From Pezizomycotina sp. ARF18 (Eukaryota; Ascomycota): a stretch of DNA of 49,351 bases. Within the stretch, counting starts at the first letter, position 1. Every line of letters begins with the position of its first letter. Position numbers and translations under genes: made by a program. Below the pieces are notes generated by a model that saw only the letters and a list, made by a program, of their open reading frames with translations, ran no database searches and was not told where the DNA came from. This document shows, one piece after another, positions 18,147 through 44,149 of the stretch. Location of the stretch: positions 1 to 49,351 of the forward strand of contig AZLU01000066.1 of NCBI GenBank assembly GCA_002224055.1. Reading direction: 5' to 3'.

Positions 18147-19353
18147 CTAGTCATTTCGTAGTATTTCTTCTCCCGACCCTTCGACAACTTTTGGGTCGTC
18201 CTTGTACGCGCTCTGGAAACCGTGGAATCCTTTCTTCAAGACCCTGACATCTGTTCCCCGACACCCACTCCAATTCGTCGTACTTGACCGGACCAGTATA
18301 TCCTTGCTGATCCAGTATAGGGACAACCATGTAGCTTTCGAGCTTGAGATTCTCACGTCCTCATCAGTAGCGATGACGGCTTGCTGACCGGGACTCAGGA
18401 TGGTAAGGGTAGTCTCTTGCGCTGTAACTGTTGCAGGGTCTGATGTCGCTGGTAGTCCTCTGCAGACAGTTCCTCTGCAGGCAATTCTTCCGCCGGAGCA
18501 GGCTCGGATGTTGTCGACGACTCTCCAAAGGTTGGTTCAACGGTTGGTTTCTTGTTGACCTTTTGGACATGTTTGGTTGGAGTCTTCTTGGGCGAATTTT
18601 TGGCGTCCGCCGACTTGAGCTTTTCCAACTCTGCCTTGCGCACTTCCTCAACGTGCTTGACATACTCCTCGAGGAAACGTCTGGCCTATTGGCGCTGGTT
18701 CAATTTCGCCGGTTAATATCATGTGAGGCCTCATTTTCACATATTTGACGACTTTTCGCGTAAATATGCACCGGTTAGCTTATATGAGTGATTATAATGG
18801 AAGCTTTAAATCTGGGAAGGATGGCTATTGGAAGCTTACAAATCTCTGGACCGCGGTGAACGGAGAATTGGCAGTAGATGATAACATTGGTCTTCCCTTT
18901 CAATTCCCTGACGAGCTCTTTCATGCGCTCTTCCTCCTTTCTCTCGCTCGTCAACTCCTTAAAGAGTTTATGCAACGACCCTACAATGTGGCCTCCGGCG
19001 TAATCTTCTGAAAGTTAGAAAACGAATTTGCGGAAGAAACTTATATATGTGTGTGTAAAAAAGGTGAAAAAGAAAGCAGTAATTGTGCTGACCTGCATCG
19101 CGGACGCTACGATTTGTCAAGTAAAACCACCTATTAGTCAAGTTCATTGAAGACAGAAGTTCGAAATTTCAACTAGTGGTAAGTAGCTACTCTACGAATA
19201 CAACGCTCGCCTCGGCCGTTTCGCTTTTGCCGCGTTGGATGACGAGGGCATGAACATGTTCCGCAGAAATAGCTTTGATAGGAGGGCAGTAGTCTTCCAA
19301 GACGTTGAATGCCCCCAAGAAGTTCCGCTTTCTTTTCCCTCCGTGTCTGGCAT
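18147..19353 (-). CDS. Acr2/Cdc25-type rhodanese-domain protein, paralogue 1
   Basis: Rhodanese fold with a Cys-x5-Arg active loop, as in arsenate reductase Acr2 and the Ych1/Ibp1 phosphatases. Start taken at 19353 (MPDTEGKE), then KAISAEHVHALVIQRGK, ASVVFVD, a 14-nt micro-exon (19093..19106) encoding VRD, DYAGGHIVGSLHKLFKEL, a charged linker ERKEEERMKELVRELKG, the active loop IIYCQFSVHRGP, then ARRFLEEYVKHVEEVRKAEL. A Lys/Pro/Glu-rich insertion (KKTPTKHVQKVNKKP; PAEELPAEELSAED) precedes a C-terminal part with SYMVVPILDQQGYTGP and VRVLKKGFHGFQSAYKDDP, which fits the last rhodanese strand. Introns: 19107..19190 and 19008..19092. Frame changes occur near 19330 and 18290. The usual His before the Cys is Tyr here, so substrate is uncertain. 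Confidence 0.78.
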
Positions 19354-19411
19354 AATCGCAAATGAAGACCTATACCGGTGCATTTTCTTTCTTAAAATAC
19401 ATATAAGTACC

Positions 19412-20179
19412 TTAGAGTAAAAATAGTTTCTTGATAACTTCTTTCTCAGGAGAGGCATTGAGCTTGTGAACGTAGTCGTCCCTCGCGGCTCTTAAGTTCC
19501 AAAAGGTAGTTCAGGTACATCTTCCTCCATGTTTCTGAATTTTAATAAATTTTTTCGAAACTCTCGGCAATTTGATCGTGGGCCTTAGGTCGCCCTATCG
19601 TGAGGAGGAGGAGCTTGAGACGGTTAAATTCATCCAGTTCCACATTAGATAAGTTCTCCAAGTCTAAAAACAGAATTCTAAGGTAAAAAGTTTCTCCCAT
19701 ACTTATCTTCAAAGCGAAAAAGGTTGTGACCCGTATAGCATGATGAAATGCATCTTCGTCGTTTCGGACACCTTTGTTGTATAATTGAGGGTCTGCTACT
19801 ATGTCGTCCGCTGTGGCGTGTCGATTCCCTTGCGCAATAACTGAATAATCCTTCGGGGGAGGTGTCTTTAGGATGTCCCTTCGAAGGTGGAGATAAAGCG
19901 ATTCCTTAACCCTTGTAATGTGCGTTTCGGCTTTTGATATTGTCCATCTCGGTTTGGAGTTGAGTTATTTGTCAGACTGTAGCTTTAACGACCTTCGTTA
20001 CGTCTTTCCACCCTTTCGTTCAATTGTCGTTCTTCCCAAAGCTGGTGGCTGGCGATGTTTCCCTGCACTTGCACTCCGTCATCATCTCTTCGGATAATCT
20101 CCTCGGCTGCTTCATCTGGCGATTTTCTTGCTGACTCTTCCTTGAGCTCATCGTCCGATTGGACGTCGTATTGGGTCAT
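19412..20179 (-). CDS. Unrecognised acidic/helical protein
   Basis: Start at 20179 opens an acidic N-terminus (MTQYDVQSDDELKEESARK). An intron at 19931..19992 restores frame exactly (donor GTCGTT is unusual, perhaps a base missing; acceptor AAAAG). Exon 2 then reads ETHITRVKESLYLHLRRDIL, KTPPPKDYSVIAQGNRHATA, DPQLYNKGVRNDEDAFHHAI, ELDEFNRLKLLLLTIGRPK, ETWRKMYLNYLLEL. A 39-nt segment beginning GTATGG and ending TTTTTAG (near 19672-19710) is open and in frame, so it could be a very short intron or translated. The end is ambiguous: stop at 19412 via a frame ending SPEKEVIKKLFLL, or about 19447 without a shift. It ends about 59 bp before the start of rhodanese paralogue 1. No family recognised. 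Confidence 0.6.
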
Positions 20180-20394
20180 TAAGACCCGTACCCAATAAGA
20201 TCCGTTATTTAATAGTTGTTAAGCTACTCGTCAAAAAAGTAAACCCTAGAGTCGTGGAGATGCGGGAGAAAAGGTGACTTGGAACTTTACCCTTCTTGGT
20301 TTCCTTTTTTCATCTTCTGCCCTTCGCTCTCTATCTCCTAGGATCCATAGTATTAGGTTAGGGGCCCTATTATTTCTCACTAGCCATGGTATTT

Positions 20395-20515
20395 AGCGTT
20401 GGTAAGCTTGGCAGTCCATACCTCTCCGGAACCGATCAAGTAGCGCTGGAGTGCAATATCTTTCTTTAAAGTTTACAGAAAACTTGCCAAGCTTACTGCC
20501 AAGCTTACCAACGCT
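20395..20515. mobile_element. Short inverted-repeat element (MITE-like, possibly pogo/Fot1-derived)
   Basis: The two ends, 20395-20415 and 20495-20515, are perfect 21-bp inverted repeats (AGCGTTGGTAAGCTTGGCAG plus T). The interior is 79 bp with no coding capacity. At the right end the 12-mer TGCCAAGCTTAC occurs twice in direct tandem (20485-20508), so that arm contains an extra partial unit. I see no clear target-site duplication in the flanks (TTT before, GAA after). Size and perfect ends suggest a non-autonomous DNA element; assignment to the pogo/Fot1 group is a guess from general resemblance. Confidence 0.6.
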
Positions 20516-21509
20516 GAACACCTGACACTAGCCACTTTACTAGCCTTTATAACACGCTCTAACAGCGCAGACGTGGCGCAGCCATGTATGGGTCTTCGAG
20601 AGTCGAGAGTAAAGCTAAATATTGGGGACTTCTGTACATTAAAAGCTTCACAATTTGGTATATAAAAAAATAAAAAAAATAAAAAGAGAGAGAGAGAGTT
20701 CGCTTTAATAACTTGGTATTCACAACTTGTCTCGTAGTCTCTATAGCGACGCTCTTGCTTGTTTTTTTTTTTTTTTTTTTCGCGCAGCAGCAATATAAGG
20801 AGTGTCCCACATCTTTTTCTCGTGCCCATCCATCCTTTCCCGCAGGGAAGGCAGGGTGCAATCCACAGCAAAAAAAATTCGAAAATATTTTAATTTAATA
20901 TCTATTCTTTTTTATTTGAATGGTAGCTAGCCCGCTGGCCATGGCGCCGAAGGCACCACTGGCCTACCTAATCACCGCTATCAGGCAGAGACAATGGCCC
21001 CAATAGTATGTACTATAATAATATGATATGTAGCGTACATCGAGAGTAATAGGGGATACCATTATATAGTATAAGGGAAAGGTTATAGATAGGGAAGGGC
21101 ATGTCATGCATACTACAACCGCTTACCCCACCGCTACCCACTTCTGCCCACCACCGCTATCTATTAGCGCTGTTTAATTCTCTGATTTACTAAAGTACTT
21201 TCTATTTATACCTATTTTGTTACTTTATTCCAACCAGAGAGCCCTTGGCCGTTTTACAAGAAGAATGTTGTAAGATAATAGCAATGGAGCGATGACTGAG
21301 CTGTCTCGATCTATTGTAGACCTTACTTATTGCTTCAATTAAATCTGTCAGAGATTGGACGGCCTTCTACATTCGCATTTCACAGCCATGTTTCTGGATG
21401 AAGGTGCGTTTCATAGAGGGCGGTAAAATCCTTCTAAATTCTTGAACCTGCCCCCCCCCCCCAAAGCCTTTTTTTTTTTGTGTTGAGCTTCGAGTAATAT
21501 TGAATGTAT
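20516..21509. other. Intergenic, nothing recognised
   Basis: AT-rich spacer with an AG microsatellite (about 20683-20699), a T20 run (20762-20780) and a short C11 run near 21451. Some GC-rich words (CTGGCCATGGCGCC near 20935) are partly palindromic. No gene supported. Confidence 0.45.
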
Positions 21510-22361
21510 CTATACATTATTATAATATTCATTATCGGTAGTAAACCACTTTATTGCTGCGATAACTTCAGAACCAATCATCGACCAAAGCTTCTTGTCA
21601 TAGTTCTGTGTCAGCTCTTTGTCTTCACCGTACTCTTCCTGCCATGCCTGAAAGCCGCCTTCGAGGACGTAGACTATTTGCTCTTTCGATTCTCCTCCAG
21701 ATTTTCTTGCTTGCCTCCTCAGATGTACTAGCCTTGCCTTCCTCCATAGCCACTTCGTCTCCTCGCTTTGAGCAACGGTAGCTTTCTTACTAGCACCGCT
21801 AGGGTAGTAGGGTTCTACGTCGCCCTTTGCTAGCATTTCTTTGCGCTCCCGGAGATATTTTAATGCTAAAATGAATGTTCAAGTTAGAAACAAAACCTTT
21901 GCAGATCCGAGATTATTGATAAACAAAGAGAGGAAGGAGATGAATGAAGTACCGCTGGAGGGGCCCCTTTGCTGGGAGAGGGCGCAGTGGAACACTACGG
22001 TCTCCTTGACCTGTAGCTCCCGAACCAGGGCGGGCATCTCGTACTTCAGGGATGTCGACGGCCTGTGAAGAGAGCCTTTATGTGGCCGCCACGTGATCTA
22101 TACATAGCATTAACAGCGGGCAAGATTAGGACTATCCAGGAACAGCTCATATGCTCCTTGAGGCATCTGAAGCTCAGATGCTGTTGCTTACCAGAGTCTC
22201 GAACACTGTGAAATATATTATATTAGTACAAAGTAGCTCAAATGAGAGTAGCGGCGTGGGTTTCCTCACTCAACTACAGCAATGTTACTTCGTTCTCCGA
22301 AAGTAGCAGTTTGCGCAAGTCCGCCCTCGAAATGCGCTGAAGAACCGGAATACGGCTCCAT
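21510..22361 (-). CDS. Acr2/Cdc25-type rhodanese-domain protein, paralogue 2
   Basis: Closer than paralogue 1 to classical Acr2/Ych1-like proteins. Exons on the minus strand: about 22270..22361 (ISRADLRKLLLSE; then NIAVVD after a frame change), micro-exon 22192..22205 (VRD), 21953..22097 (DHV..GHIKGSLHRPSTSLKYE, then VVFHCALSQQRGPSS with the HCx5R active loop) and 21510..21865 (ALKYLRERKEMLAKGD; VYVLEGGFQAWQEEYGEDKE). Introns 22206..22269, 22098..22191 and 21866..21952 have canonical borders. One G is missing in the GTGG(G)CGG of exon 3. The family includes arsenate reductases that use glutathione/glutaredoxin and protein phosphatases; the sequence alone does not decide. Start uncertain: an open frame continues upstream of 22361. 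Confidence 0.87.
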
Positions 22362-22946: not shown

Positions 22947-24099
22947 TTACGAGACTTGAACAATGACTTTCCCTCTCAGTGAGTTTCCCGTTCAAGAAGC
23001 GGTCGTATGCCTAAATATATTAGATAACATTGTTAGCACTATTTCCCTCTCCCTTCTCGGATAAAATAAGAAGACTGTGAATTCATTACCTTGAGGGCTT
23101 CTTCCATCGGCCATGTGCTGTCCACAATCCGCGAAGCTCCCCTGCTTCTACAGCGGCTCTAAGCTCTTCCAGATCCTTCTTCTCGGGTACTAGCATGCTG
23201 ACTTGGTGATATGACCTAGCACCACCTCCCAAAAGCCGAGGGAGTAGCATGTTTTTCATCATCGCGATCACAGACCAGAACATCGCCATGCCGGTATATG
23301 CCTTCATCTTCGCGCCAGCACTCACAAACGTCTTTCCTTTCTTTAGGTACGATCCGCTGTGGAAGTATATCTCCGGCACACCCACGGAATCTATCACCAT
23401 GTCAAAAGGTTGGTTTGCATAGGTAGAAGCTAGTTGTTCGTGAACTTTGGGGTTCTTTGTCCTGTAATCGATGCACTCGTCCGCACCGAGGCTCCTGACA
23501 GGTCAAAAAGTTGCTTTCTGAGCAAATGGCGACTACGTGACCCGTTTTCCCTACGGCCGCCCGTGCGAGCTGTACGACAAGGCAGCCTATTCCACCAGTA
23601 CCTCCCACGATCAGAACCCTCTCTCCCGGTTTCAGTCTGCTTTCCTCATCAGGAGCAAAGCGGTACAGCCTGCGATCCCAAACCCAGCCATATCCCTCAA
23701 GTTCGCATTAGACGGTATCCGTGCGACGTGACCGGCTTCTGCAACAGCGTATTCCCCAATGTTCCCGCGCCCGGCTTTCAGATGTGCATCGACCGTTACA
23801 ACTCCGAAAACTTCATCCCCTGGACGTAAGTCGTCGTATTTGGCCGCCACGCCGGAGCCGACGGCGACTATTGTCCCCGAAAAGTCCATTTCCGGAATCC
23901 AGGGAGCGGGCGCCGAGTGGAAGAAGGACGGGAATATTGCATGGCGATGCTACCGCCTGGATTTAAGGCAGCGTGTGAGATTCGAACGAGAACAGATGTT
24001 GGGGTACAACGCGGCCCGAAAGTGTAGGGGTTGGAACAGAATCGTTGAATGTAAGTTTGTCTGATGGTAAGCCGGGAGATCTGTATGTCCAAGCCTCAT
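22947..24099 (-). CDS. Medium-chain dehydrogenase/reductase (quinone-oxidoreductase/RTN4IP1-like)
   Basis: NAD(P)H-dependent MDR-superfamily enzyme without visible zinc ligands. Start at 24099; adding one G to the AGG after the ATG gives RAWTYRSPGLPSDKLTF, typical of the family. Then VLVRISHAALNP, MDFSGTIVAVGSGV, the GDEVFGVV motif, IGEYAVAEAGHVARIPSN, FGIAGCTALL, the nucleotide-binding loop MGGTGGIGCLVVQLARA, ECIDY-like and VIDSVGVPEIY, SYHQVSMLVPEKKDLEELRA, and after an intron (near 22995-23085) AYDRFLNGKLT and VIVQVS with TAA at 22947. Frame changes near 23900, 23500 and 23100. Substrate unknown; such enzymes reduce quinones, enones or act in secondary metabolism. Confidence 0.88.
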
Positions 24100-30489: not shown

Positions 30490-31726
30490 TCAAAATTTGA
30501 TCAAGAACACGGCTGTTCTCACCCATAGCCAAAGGAAGAGGAAGAAAAGGACGGTTCCGAAGAGCAGGATGACGATCCACTCGAGGGTCATAATCTTGGC
30601 GTACAGCTTCGCGAGCCTCTTCTTACCCTCCAGGTGTAAGTCTTCCAAGCCTCGACGACGTTCAGAGGTCCTCTCCTCTCGAAGGGGATGATGGACTCCT
30701 CATGGGCGGGGAAAACGGAAGCTTGGACGCGGAACAGGATGATCATGGATGGGATGAATAGGAGTACGTGAGTGGCGAGGAAGACGCTGTACAGCGCGAA
30801 GCATTGGAGGGTGACAGCATGGCGGTATAAGGGACATCCGGGTTCGGGGGCATCGGGTCGTCGTAAGCCGCCTTGGCACGAAAGCGTGCAGCAGCAAGTT
30901 GGGAAGGCATACGTCGCCTGGCCCGCGAAGGCGAAGAGAAGCATAGCCGGGAGCGTGTGAAGGACGGACTTGTAGGGAGTCCTCGCGAGCCTTCCGAACC
31001 AAGTTTCCTTTGTCGGAGCGGCAATGACGACGTGCGTGTGTACGAGACTCAGCGGGGAAACGAGCAAAACGACGAGAATGCCGGCGAAGAACTTGCCCGT
31101 CGGAAAGGCGAAGAGGGACAGGAAGATGCCGTTGACGATGGAAGCGCAGACGACGTAGGCGATATCTGCAGAGAAACCACGCCAGGCGCTGAAGAAGCCT
31201 GCTTCCTCACGGAGGTAGCGCAGGGTTTTGCGGAAAGAGGAGGTGATGTACTTGTCGGGAGGGTGGCCACCCACGTAAAGACCGGTAGCTATTTTCGGAA
31301 GTTCCGCGTTATCGGCATTCTCCTCGGCATCGGTGCTACTGTCCTGACTATCCTCCGATGCAACGAGGTTGTAGTCGGATGGCAGGTCTTCGACGATCGT
31401 GAGCAGTTTGACGACTTGGAATGTATAATCGAACTATGAAACTGTTAGGTCTTATCCATGATTAAAAATAGAGTGGAAATAACCCCGCAAAAAAGGGGAG
31501 GCGATGGATTGTGTAGTGCGATGACGATAAGGTAACTTAAGAGAGCAAGGCAACATACCAGTATCAAAATAATGAAGCCTGTAAGCATAAACAGGATAAG
31601 GAGAACCAGGGCAAGAATATTCGGGTCCTTCTTCCCCTGATCCATCGCCATGAACTCATCGGAGGCTACGATGAAGTTGCCGGCCCCGCCGGAAGTCACC
31701 ATTCGTTTTGCCAATGATGCGAGCAT
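30490..31726 (-). CDS. Fungal multi-pass integral membrane protein, function unknown
   Basis: Start at 31726 (MLASLAKRMVTSGGAGNF). Exon 1 ends in the first membrane segment NILALVLLILFMLTGFIILI; intron 31434..31558 (GTATGT..CATAG) joins LFDYTFQVVKLLTIVEDL in frame. After an acidic loop (SEDSQDSSTDAEENADNAEL) come further hydrophobic segments: AYVVCASIVNGIFLSLF, FFAGILVVLLVSPLSLVHTH, LPAMLLFAFAGQATYAF, FALYSVFLATHVLLFIPSMI, then RVQASVFPAHEESIIPF and, after a one-base shift near 30620, GKKRLAKLYAKIMTLEWIVI and LFFLFLWLWV with TGA at 30490. About 370 residues and six predicted helices. The WTHVV/RVQAS..E..IPF pattern resembles an uncharacterised fungal membrane-protein family. No enzymatic motif seen. 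Confidence 0.75.
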
Positions 31727-41584: not shown

Positions 41585-44149
41585 CAAGGAGAGATGGCTT
41601 AGAGTACGGTGTAGATGCTGATGATATTCTTGAACCTATATGTAATATATTTTTCCGACCTAGGTGTGTTCTGACTGTGCTAACGTCAGGCCATAAGGTT
41701 CTATTATATTCGCCAAAATCTCGGCTGGGAGGCGAATGGGAGCTGGTGTGTTTCCCCTCTGAATAATTAACAATATTGAAACCTACTGCCATCTTAGTTC
41801 AATTAAAAGGCTAACACAAGTCTATTGGGGTGTTCAGTTTTATGATGTCACCAAATTCCTTCGACAGCCAGAAGCAAATGGCGATGGTGTAGAGGAAGAT
41901 CATGCCGCGCGCGTTAAGCGATGGTACAAAACACGAACCAGAGTAGAACTTATAACGCACACCAAATTATTGCATGAAAATTTACTAACTTTAGCCGCAA
42001 GATATCTCCTGGTCTCATGCTTGTAATTCTACTAGCAACAACCGTGGCTATTCACTACTATCCCTGAGCAATGACTGCAATGACATCACGCTGGTCAGCG
42101 TGACAGCCCGTGGCATGAAGCAGCATCTGCGAAAGCGCATTGCAAATACAGACGGAACATATATCAAGAATATGTCATGGTCACCCTGGTCCCCGAAAGA
42201 CGAATCATCGGGTGAGTAATACTACCGCAAGCAAACCTACTAAGACGCCGTGTGATATTGACATTCGTTTTGCAGCTTCTGCTTGGCTTACATTTTCTCT
42301 CGGGCATCAACAATACGTGTTAAGAGTTGAAATGGATCTTCAAATGGCGAAGCCCTGGTAAGTCTAAGAGAGCTTCATTCATTAACTACTGCCATAACGC
42401 TATCGCACCAGCCTCAGCAACTTGCTGGTTCCCGCGGTTATTGAAATCTTCTTTAGATTCCGAGAGCAATGCCGTGATGTGTCTGTTAGCGGTTGTGCTA
42501 CAGACATCCGTAGAAGTCTATACGGTGGATGCGGCTAGCGCCAAATTCACTCAATGCAGAAACTACAAAAGTCTGAGGTCGATTTGCCCGATTCAATTGT
42601 CGGCGCCAGTTTCGTCTACGGCAAGGATTAGGGACTATCAATCTTAATATCGTTACGGTCAATGGAACATTTGTCCAAATACCGTACGCTCCCGACGAAA
42701 AGTTTGTCTCTGCGATCATTTACAACTCTGGGATATGAGCAGAAACGAGAAAACCGTGCAGAAGATCGATTTCATGCGGTCGTTCCAGCGTAGAAGATTA
42801 CAATTCATGAGGAGGTTCAAAATCACAAACGCCTCGTGTAGAAACTTTGGGATGGCTGTCTCGCCCTTCGCCGGATATGTTGCGATATTATCTCGGTCGG
42901 TAAATTAGCTCGGCCTTTAACTCGAGCCTGCGTTTCTCATGTCCCTGAAACTGACAATATAATAATAGCATGAAGCCCGAAGGTTATGTAGAATTTACGA
43001 TGAAGAATGACGAAGACTCCGTGATTGTGTTCAGCCATAGTCGAAACCTGGAAAGCTTTCTAAACTTCGAAGAGGACGGGATCGTTTTACCGCTGAGGTC
43101 GTCTGGTGAGCAAGAAGCAGATTCCAATGAAATGACTAATGTGAGCTACCACTAACATTTCCATGCAGCCTCAGAGCTTTCTACTGAGGGGTTTTTGGCC
43201 GATATCTCGCATATCGCGCGTACCTGAAAAGTAATACGGCGTTTTATAACACCTTAGAGAACCAGCTGGCAAGTAAAGAAGGTAATAAGCTTACATCTCA
43301 GACATTATTGGATTGAAATTGTTCGATGTCACGTTGACTGACATCTTTAAATAATCATGTATAGTCTACAGGCTACAGACTGCAATTAAGCTTCTGCGTA
43401 GGAACCAGATATCGGTTAGGACGGCAGCGACTCTCGTTCCTCCACGAGCAACAACAAACCGGCTTCTCTACTCCACTCTTTCGATACCCGTGGAAGCCTT
43501 GCAAGAGATGCTCAGTTCCTCAAAGCTCTCCAGAAGATCATTTACTTTTACGCTGCGTAGCTATTATCGGGTTTTACATCGATGAGCGGATATTTACCGA
43601 AGCAGCGTACAAGCTCAACATCCTGCGGGACGGCTTCGGTTACGACATTGAGGAAGAGAGGACGCTCATCGTGAAGCGAATAGCGGCAATTCGGGGTGAC
43701 GTTCAGCTAACACGGTACCGGAAGCAATAAACGAACATGCGCTCGAGACATGCAAGTGGTGCGGATCCGGCATGCCATTCAGGGATCTAGGAACGCATAT
43801 TGTACCAATAACCATCAATTCCGTAAGTCATTCGGCAATCAAACGGACTTTTGTTCCGTTTCTTTTTTAATATTTCAGAGCTAATAAAAAATGTTTTTTT
43901 GAAAAAGGCCGTTGTGCTTTGACCTTCGTGGCTCTTCAACAAGGAAGTGCAAGATCGTGCAGTATTTGCGCTCGGAGTTTCTTCACAGAAGAGATGCTAT
44001 TGGACGACGAGGAGAACGAGAACGACGGGTCTGTGGGCACCCAGCACGAAGACAATTCTGTTTCCCGGAGGGGCTACAAGTCGCTTGCGAGACTGTGGTT
44101 TGAGACCATTGACCTCTGTCCATACTGCGGAGGCTGTTTTACCGAATAA
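40747..44149 (+). CDS. Transcription factor IIIC subunit (TFIIIC90/Sfc9-like)
   Basis: RNA polymerase III assembly factor subunit with an N-terminal WD40-like domain and a C-terminal zinc domain. Start at 40747: MLRDITLPFWPTSYSSFKWS then QDGQLCLAVDNRVYVL. A Lys-rich insertion (KSKKATAKRESTSTSTNAKK) follows, then FHYSQIQVE, QDWSAPETENPSLIFKLEWS, CVLTVLTSGHKVLLYSPKS, FYDVTKFLRQPE, SAWLTFSLGHQQYVLRVEMD, VNGTFVQIPYAPDEKFVSAI, FGMAVSPFAGYVAIL, MKPEGYVEFTMKNDEDSVIV, FYIDERIFTEAAYKLN. The C-terminus has the Cys pairs CKWC (in KWCGSGMPFRDLG), CSIC (CSICARSF) and CPYC (DLCPYCGGCFTE). At least six introns (for example near 41504-41664, 41746-41834, 42211-42275, 43817-43905) and many frame changes. The first intron holds a T35 run. 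Confidence 0.9.
41378..41412 (+). repeat. Poly(T) tract in TFIIIC intron
   Basis: T35 between a CTGACTACTAAT branch-like sequence and an AAAG acceptor. Slippage here makes the exact intron end unreliable. Confidence 0.85.
41538..41584 (+). repeat. Adjacent C9-T11-A27 runs in TFIIIC intron
   Basis: Three different homopolymers directly abut inside an intron: about nine C, eleven T and twenty-seven A. Confidence 0.85.

Follow-up and report, generated by a model that had tools for sequence, protein, structure and literature searches.

Two rhodanese-type genes on one contig

The DNA examined here, referred to as the window, comprises positions 1 to 49,351 of contig AZLU01000066.1 (assembly GCA_002224055.1) of the ascomycete Pezizomycotina sp. 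ARF18, 49,351 nucleotides (nt) in all. It contains two neighbouring rhodanese-type genes, here called P1 and P2, both on the minus strand, each with a candidate micro-exon of 14 nt; the two micro-exons lie ~3.1 kb apart. Judging from the sequence, we consider that the codons for Asp-Val-Arg-Asp (D-V-R-D) of both genes sit on this separate exon between two short introns, with a probability of roughly 0.85. The parts concerned are as follows.

19191..19273, minus strand: P1 exon A, conserved end, AISAEHVHALVIQRGKSETAEASVVFV + GA, phase 2 (from translation)
19107..19190, minus strand: P1 intron 1, 84 nt, GTAGCT..TCGTAG
19093..19106, minus strand: P1 micro-exon, 14 nt, CGTCCGCGATGCAG, would code (D)VRDA(E)
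19008..19092, minus strand: P1 intron 2, 85 nt, GTCAGC..CTAACTTTCAG, phase 1, no in-frame stop
18841..19007, minus strand: P1 exon C, (E)DYAGGHIVGSLH...NVIIYCQFSVHRGPEI, carries C-X5-R
22270..22340, minus strand: P2 exon A, terminal part, RISRADLRKLLLSENE followed in a second frame by SNIAVV + GA, phase 2; 5' boundary approximate
22206..22269, minus strand: P2 intron 1, 64 nt, GTGAGG..TACTAAT..TTTCACAG
22192..22205, minus strand: P2 micro-exon, 14 nt, TGTTCGAGACTCTG, would code (D)VRDS(D)
22098..22191, minus strand: P2 intron 2, 94 nt, GTAAGC..GTTAATGCTATGTATAG, phase 1, no in-frame stop
21953..22097, minus strand: P2 exon C, (D)HV / GGHIK / GSLHRPSTSLKYEMPALVRELQVKETVVFHCALSQQRGPSS, three frame pieces, HCX5R; 3' end by eye

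The frame of P1 exon A has no upstream ATG ahead of a stop, and P1 exon C is open over its entire length. Branch-like motifs are visible as TACTAAT in P2 intron 1 and as CTAAC shortly 5' of the TTTCAG end of P1 intron 2, and may serve in splicing.

The 14-nt segments

Both 14-mers have AG directly before them and GT directly after, and as internal exons they lie within the limit of at most 30 nt applied to micro-exons. Both exon A sequences end in phase 2 (GA|); the 14 nt finish the Asp codon, add V-R-D-A in P1 or V-R-D-S in P2, and leave one base over for the next codon (phase 1). Read in frame, the P1 segment is (GA)C-GTC-CGC-GAT-GCA-G, with exon C starting AA-GAT-TAC-GCC-GGA-GGC-CAC, and the P2 segment is (GA)T-GTT-CGA-GAC-TCT-G, with exon C starting AT-CAC-GT. 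An earlier note on this DNA had placed 14-nt exons at 19093-19106 and 22192-22205, in the same phase, coding for VRD and bordered by GT..AG introns, and this description is borne out: both lie on the minus strand with AG/GT flanks, exon A is in phase 2 in both, and DVRD is supplied by the 14 nt.

The two 14-mers differ at six of their 14 bases (positions 1, 4, 7, 10, 11 and 13). Differences 1, 4, 7 and 10 fall on the third positions of the D, V, R and D codons, the first and second positions of D-V-R-D being identical, which is the pattern that would be expected of a translated exon. The assembly searched comprises 46.36 megabases (Mb) in 408 contigs, and the P1 14-mer has a single exact occurrence in it. 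Among the 347 stretches of the form AG-N14-GT on both strands of the window, only these two sites match AG-N-GTN-CGN-GAY-N4-GT, a pattern that was derived from the two sites themselves. Position, phase, length, open frame and synonymous divergence can thus be read from the sequence for the two putative exons, and a domain score for that of P1.

Splice forms and the rhodanese domain

Possible forms were listed as all GT..AG combinations between anchors, allowing introns of 40 nt or more and one inner exon no longer than 90 nt. Five forms are open in P1 and 16 in P2. DVR is encoded in P1 by the 14-nt form only, and in P2 by the 14-nt form and its 62-nt extension only. Models with a single intron were rejected (0/5 open forms in P1 and 0/16 in P2 use one intron), as were longer inner exons in P1, which are open, yet give lower scores for the Pfam Rhodanese family.

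The Pfam cut-off for Rhodanese is 22.2 bits. The 14-nt form of P1 reaches 38.4 bits, above this curated cut-off, and the other four open forms 21.9, 21.8, 21.7 and 27.4; for a longer P1 construct the figures are 39.3 vs 22.2 bits. The claim of the earlier note that the rhodanese domain is incomplete without the exon holds for P1 (38.4 vs 21.7-27.4 bits). With the 14 nt included, P1 stays in frame and gains conserved residues; in P2 the same can be read only locally, the frame being broken nearby. The 41-amino-acid (aa) piece of P2 exon C, taken alone, has no Pfam match.

In a search of P1 against PDB chains only, the best matches were YGR203W, 1t3k and CDC25A. VDVRD of P1 stands opposite VDVR of yeast YGR203W and opposite IDVRD of 1t3k. 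Yeast Ych1 (YGR203W, PDB 3fs5/3f4a) and 1t3k, which we take to be Arabidopsis CDC25/ACR2, are the nearest solved relatives of the P1 protein, VDVR(D) included, a likeness at the protein level only. HC-X5-R is the active-site loop of Acr2/Ych1/CDC25-type rhodaneses; the loop of P2 is HCALSQQR, and those of two further paralogues described below, P3 and P4, are HCQQSTHR and HCQSSAFR. In P1 (window 18841-18890, minus strand) the loop reads YCQFSVHR, a C-X5-R with Tyr where P2, P3 and P4 have His. P1 and P2 are, on this predicted protein sequence, diverged neighbouring genes for Acr2/Ych1/CDC25-type rhodaneses, and the sequence by itself would not tell an Acr2 arsenate reductase from its phosphatase relatives.

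Chance was assessed with 6000 dinucleotide shuffles of the interval per gene, in which the anchors were kept, the exon was at most 60 nt and the introns at least 40 nt. Some open micro-exon form arose in 4039/6000 shuffles for P1 and 5160/6000 for P2, an open form with D[VCLI]R[DEGS] in 13/6000 and 26/6000, and such a form of exactly 14 nt in none (0/6000 for each gene). The motif D[VCLI]R[DEGS] was picked after inspecting the sites, so that these counts say how rare such forms are and do not amount to a blind test.

Frame breaks and assembly quality

Downstream of exon C, both genes continue in pieces.

18147..18685, minus strand: P1 downstream coding pieces, ARRFLEEYV... and, in another frame, VRVLKKGFHGFQSAYKDDPK; the frame shifts between pieces
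21510..21865, minus strand: P2 last coding pieces, ALKYLRERKEML... and IVYVLEGGFQAWQEEYGED..., with internal frame changes

Between exon C and these pieces of P1 (intron 3, window 18686-18840, minus strand), canonical sites give no in-frame join; P2 appears to be joined in phase 1 near the position matching P1 intron 3. The mismatch in P1 would reflect either an indel or a shifted splice site.

Such breaks are found elsewhere in the assembly, and the concern over assembly error voiced in the earlier note is genuine. A search for HSP70 returned 38 pieces, of which seven rows on contig C49 were examined by script and four on contig C70 by eye. On C49 (53036-54818) the seven pieces tile the HSP70 profile in changing frames, and five of their six joins overlap in the DNA, so no introns are possible at those joins; the four rows on C70 show the same pattern of frame changes. 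A gene adjoining P2 and resembling ADH/quinone oxidoreductases (window 22980-24060, minus strand) likewise has repeated frame breaks, with one piece scoring 27.5 bits for ADH_N. Uncorrected indels in the assembly are the likely cause of the frame breaks, and for those in P2 assembly error is more likely than decay.

A single exon length in the assembly could itself be off by a base. Two copies agree on 14 nt and have matching phases, however, and a length error in both is therefore unlikely. Since the HSP70 and ADH-like genes are broken as well, split gene models here may stem from indels as well as from a micro-exon, and in this assembly the two need telling apart.

Paralogues and origin of the exon

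Two further genes share one of the two introns.

Contig C166, intron ~43766-43839: P3, one intron of 74 nt, FTIIDLREA-(T|CC)-LYNYAHIR
Contig C157, intron ~11655-11580, minus strand: P4, one intron of 76 nt, FAVIDLREK-(G|CC)-DFERGHIQ

P3 was found with P1 as query (E 0.12) and P4 with P3 as query, E-values being weak throughout. In P4 the spliced piece scores 26.4 bits for Rhodanese and the second piece 14.4. Counted from the Asp codon, the intron of P3 and P4 coincides in codon and phase with intron 2 of P1 and P2 (D-x-R-x-x-(N|NN)). Their Asp codon carries no intron, and DLRE is coded in the preceding exon. The exon had been called conserved, which stands for position and phase between P1 and P2 and does not extend to P3 and P4, where only the downstream intron is present. 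Kinship of P1-P4 would rest on weak similarity, the C-X5-R loop and the common intron site. With P2 exon C or the P2 C-terminus as query, no match beyond P2 itself was found in the genome. The Rhodanese family search scored five candidates, recovering P1 and missing P2, P3 and P4, so further rhodanese genes may escape it.

Four other rhodanese genes (C46, C149, C40:10727 and C40:223478) are continuous over both intron sites. They were assumed to be the outgroup. The C46 gene is read as Cdc25-like. One C40 gene has a rhodanese exon, IVIVDVRDSEDYKKEHIAGAL, at C40:10727-10810 and, a short distance upstream in a different frame, a stretch resembling a signal peptide, MFFTAISLFAALAVAPCLAED; the gene possibly encodes a secreted rhodanese.

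The micro-exon is most plausibly the tail of an ordinary exon, separated from the rest by a second intron. We lean towards a history in which an older phase-1 intron, common to P1-P4, was followed by a later phase-2 intron in the Asp codon of the P1/P2 ancestor, which cut off the 14 nt. With the outgroup assumed as above, the simplest account would be one intron gained before the P1-P4 split and a second before the P1/P2 split. Loss of the upstream intron in P3 and P4 is a possible alternative. The paralogues suggest a route to a micro-exon in which two introns end up 14 nt apart.

Splicing of the exon and alternative explanations

Taken together, the micro-exon is an in-silico candidate that is probably real and likely constitutive. 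Skipping it shifts the frame, giving VVFVERLRRRPHCRVVA and then a stop in P1 and AVVESRGGHIKALFTGRRHP and then a stop in P2; retention of intron 1 leads to an immediate stop in both genes. The exon would be obligatory, its 14 nt not being divisible by 3, so that a transcript lacking it runs out of frame into an early stop. Constitutive inclusion could proceed by ordinary intron definition, in which short introns are each recognised singly and exon size is of minor weight (PMC8624252). Introns of 64-94 nt carrying their own donor, branch-like and acceptor signals would make the size of the exon matter little.

Several observations weigh against this account. The P1 donors GTAGCT and GTCAGC deviate from the usual fungal consensus, and between intron 2 and GGHI P2 is one residue shorter than P1. 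Neither gene has an in-frame stop in intron 2, so the sequence leaves retention of this intron possible; when retained, it reads on out of the exon C frame in P1 and, in this assembly, runs into GGHIKAL in P2. By eye, the frame of P2 breaks ~20 nt 5' of the first junction and ~7 nt 3' of the last, so its phase is read only locally. On the side of the paralogues, similarity is weak (with P3 as query, E = 0.0022 to P4, 0.060 to P2 and 0.094 to P1), the P3 pieces score 15.6 and 18.0 bits for Rhodanese, each under the Pfam cut-off alone, and whether introns were gained or lost is judged from a single genome rather than from a tree. P2 is the weaker of the two micro-exon cases, the frame breaks near both junctions having kept it from being scored in full.

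That P1 and P2 are decaying pseudogenes, with the 14-nt pieces as unspliced relics, is unlikely, though it would account for the roughly five frame shifts counted by eye over the coding length of P2 and for those near the start and in the C-terminal part of P1. The same kind of break occurs in the HSP70 genes of C49 and C70 and in the adjoining ADH-like gene, and decay is set aside on this ground, which does not prove the P2 breaks to be errors. The differences between P1 and P2 inside DVRD are, moreover, all synonymous, and P1 exon C is open throughout.

The 14-nt form could also be one isoform beside a longer exon or another splice choice, such as a 38-nt form in P1 (VVFVEWFYLTNRSVRDAE) or retention of intron 2 in P2. 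Their frames are open, and the 38-nt form, at 27.4 bits, exceeds the Pfam cut-off of 22.2, but the 14-nt form scores 11 bits above it, 14 nt is the sole DVR-giving length common to P1 and P2, and nothing in P3, P4 or the displayed PDB alignments corresponds to the residues that the longer forms would add. We regard such forms as improbable.

A regulated switch is likewise improbable. Conditional skipping would yield a frameshifted messenger RNA and turn the enzyme off, so that splicing efficiency set the enzyme level; skipping does give an early stop in both genes, and a switch-like micro-exon of 20 nt is described in Trichoderma Xlr2 (PMC11121469). A frame-breaking size alone, however, is no evidence of regulation, and constitutive use is the likelier outcome for an exon whose short neighbouring introns carry their own signals. 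It would be a bold and doubtful step further to see in both neighbours an on/off gate, with active rhodanese made on inclusion, and to suppose that P1-P4 catch the birth of the micro-exon, through an intron inserted 14 nt upstream of an older one.

Coincidence or assembly artefact, with chance open 14-mers inside intron sequence, is very improbable: openness says little, as the shuffles show, but none of the shuffles for either gene gave the motif at 14 nt, and the two genes agree in length, phases and residues with synonymous divergence. The separate 14-nt exon, constitutively spliced in, is the reading that we favour.

Relation to known micro-exons

Characterisation of fungal micro-exons is limited, with few documented in filamentous fungi (PMC11121469). 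A close likeness is the 20-nt micro-exon of Trichoderma virens Xlr2, which likewise belongs to a filamentous ascomycete, has a length not divisible by 3, lies in a conserved domain and is absent from the annotated gene model (PMC11121469). That exon is backed by RNA sequencing and regulated by glucose, whereas the putative exon of P1 and P2 is 14 nt long, lies in a rhodanese, is present in two paralogues and is predicted from sequence. Micro-exons of 2-10 aa in Phanerochaete chrysosporium P450 genes are similarly tiny coding exons among short introns in duplicated families, in this case in a basidiomycete, in another family and with alternative splicing suggested (PMC1184071). Coding micro-exons of 1-15 nt in plants are likewise conserved, domain-encoding and often unannotated, and two of their clusters include gene-structure variants with flanking introns kept or lost; unlike the four genes of one fungal genome considered here, they were traced over land plants with RNA sequencing (PMC8831610). 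In PMC8022950 and PMC3990503, micro-exons appear only as an aligner setting. No prior description of such an exon in a rhodanese or Acr2 gene appears among the titles and openings of abstracts listed in searches covering part of the literature.

The exon of P1 and P2 is a further instance of a known exon class, with a useful series of paralogues. It is a homology-checked candidate, in that without the 14 nt the Pfam score of P1 drops from far over the cut-off to roughly its level, and the two genes provide a place to try out annotation tools and to examine questions of intron gain.

Genome context

HET (at least 15 matches) and Zn_clus (at least 23) domains occur in the assembly, and none were found in 14 control prokaryotes; abundance of HET and Zn_clus is typical of filamentous ascomycetes. 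Elsewhere in the window, an open stretch of 281 aa (30588-31433, minus strand) has a mitochondrial-carrier match of 15.8 bits, under the Pfam cut-off of 22.3. The interval separating P1 from P2 holds an open stretch of 140 aa in their orientation (19542-19964, minus strand).

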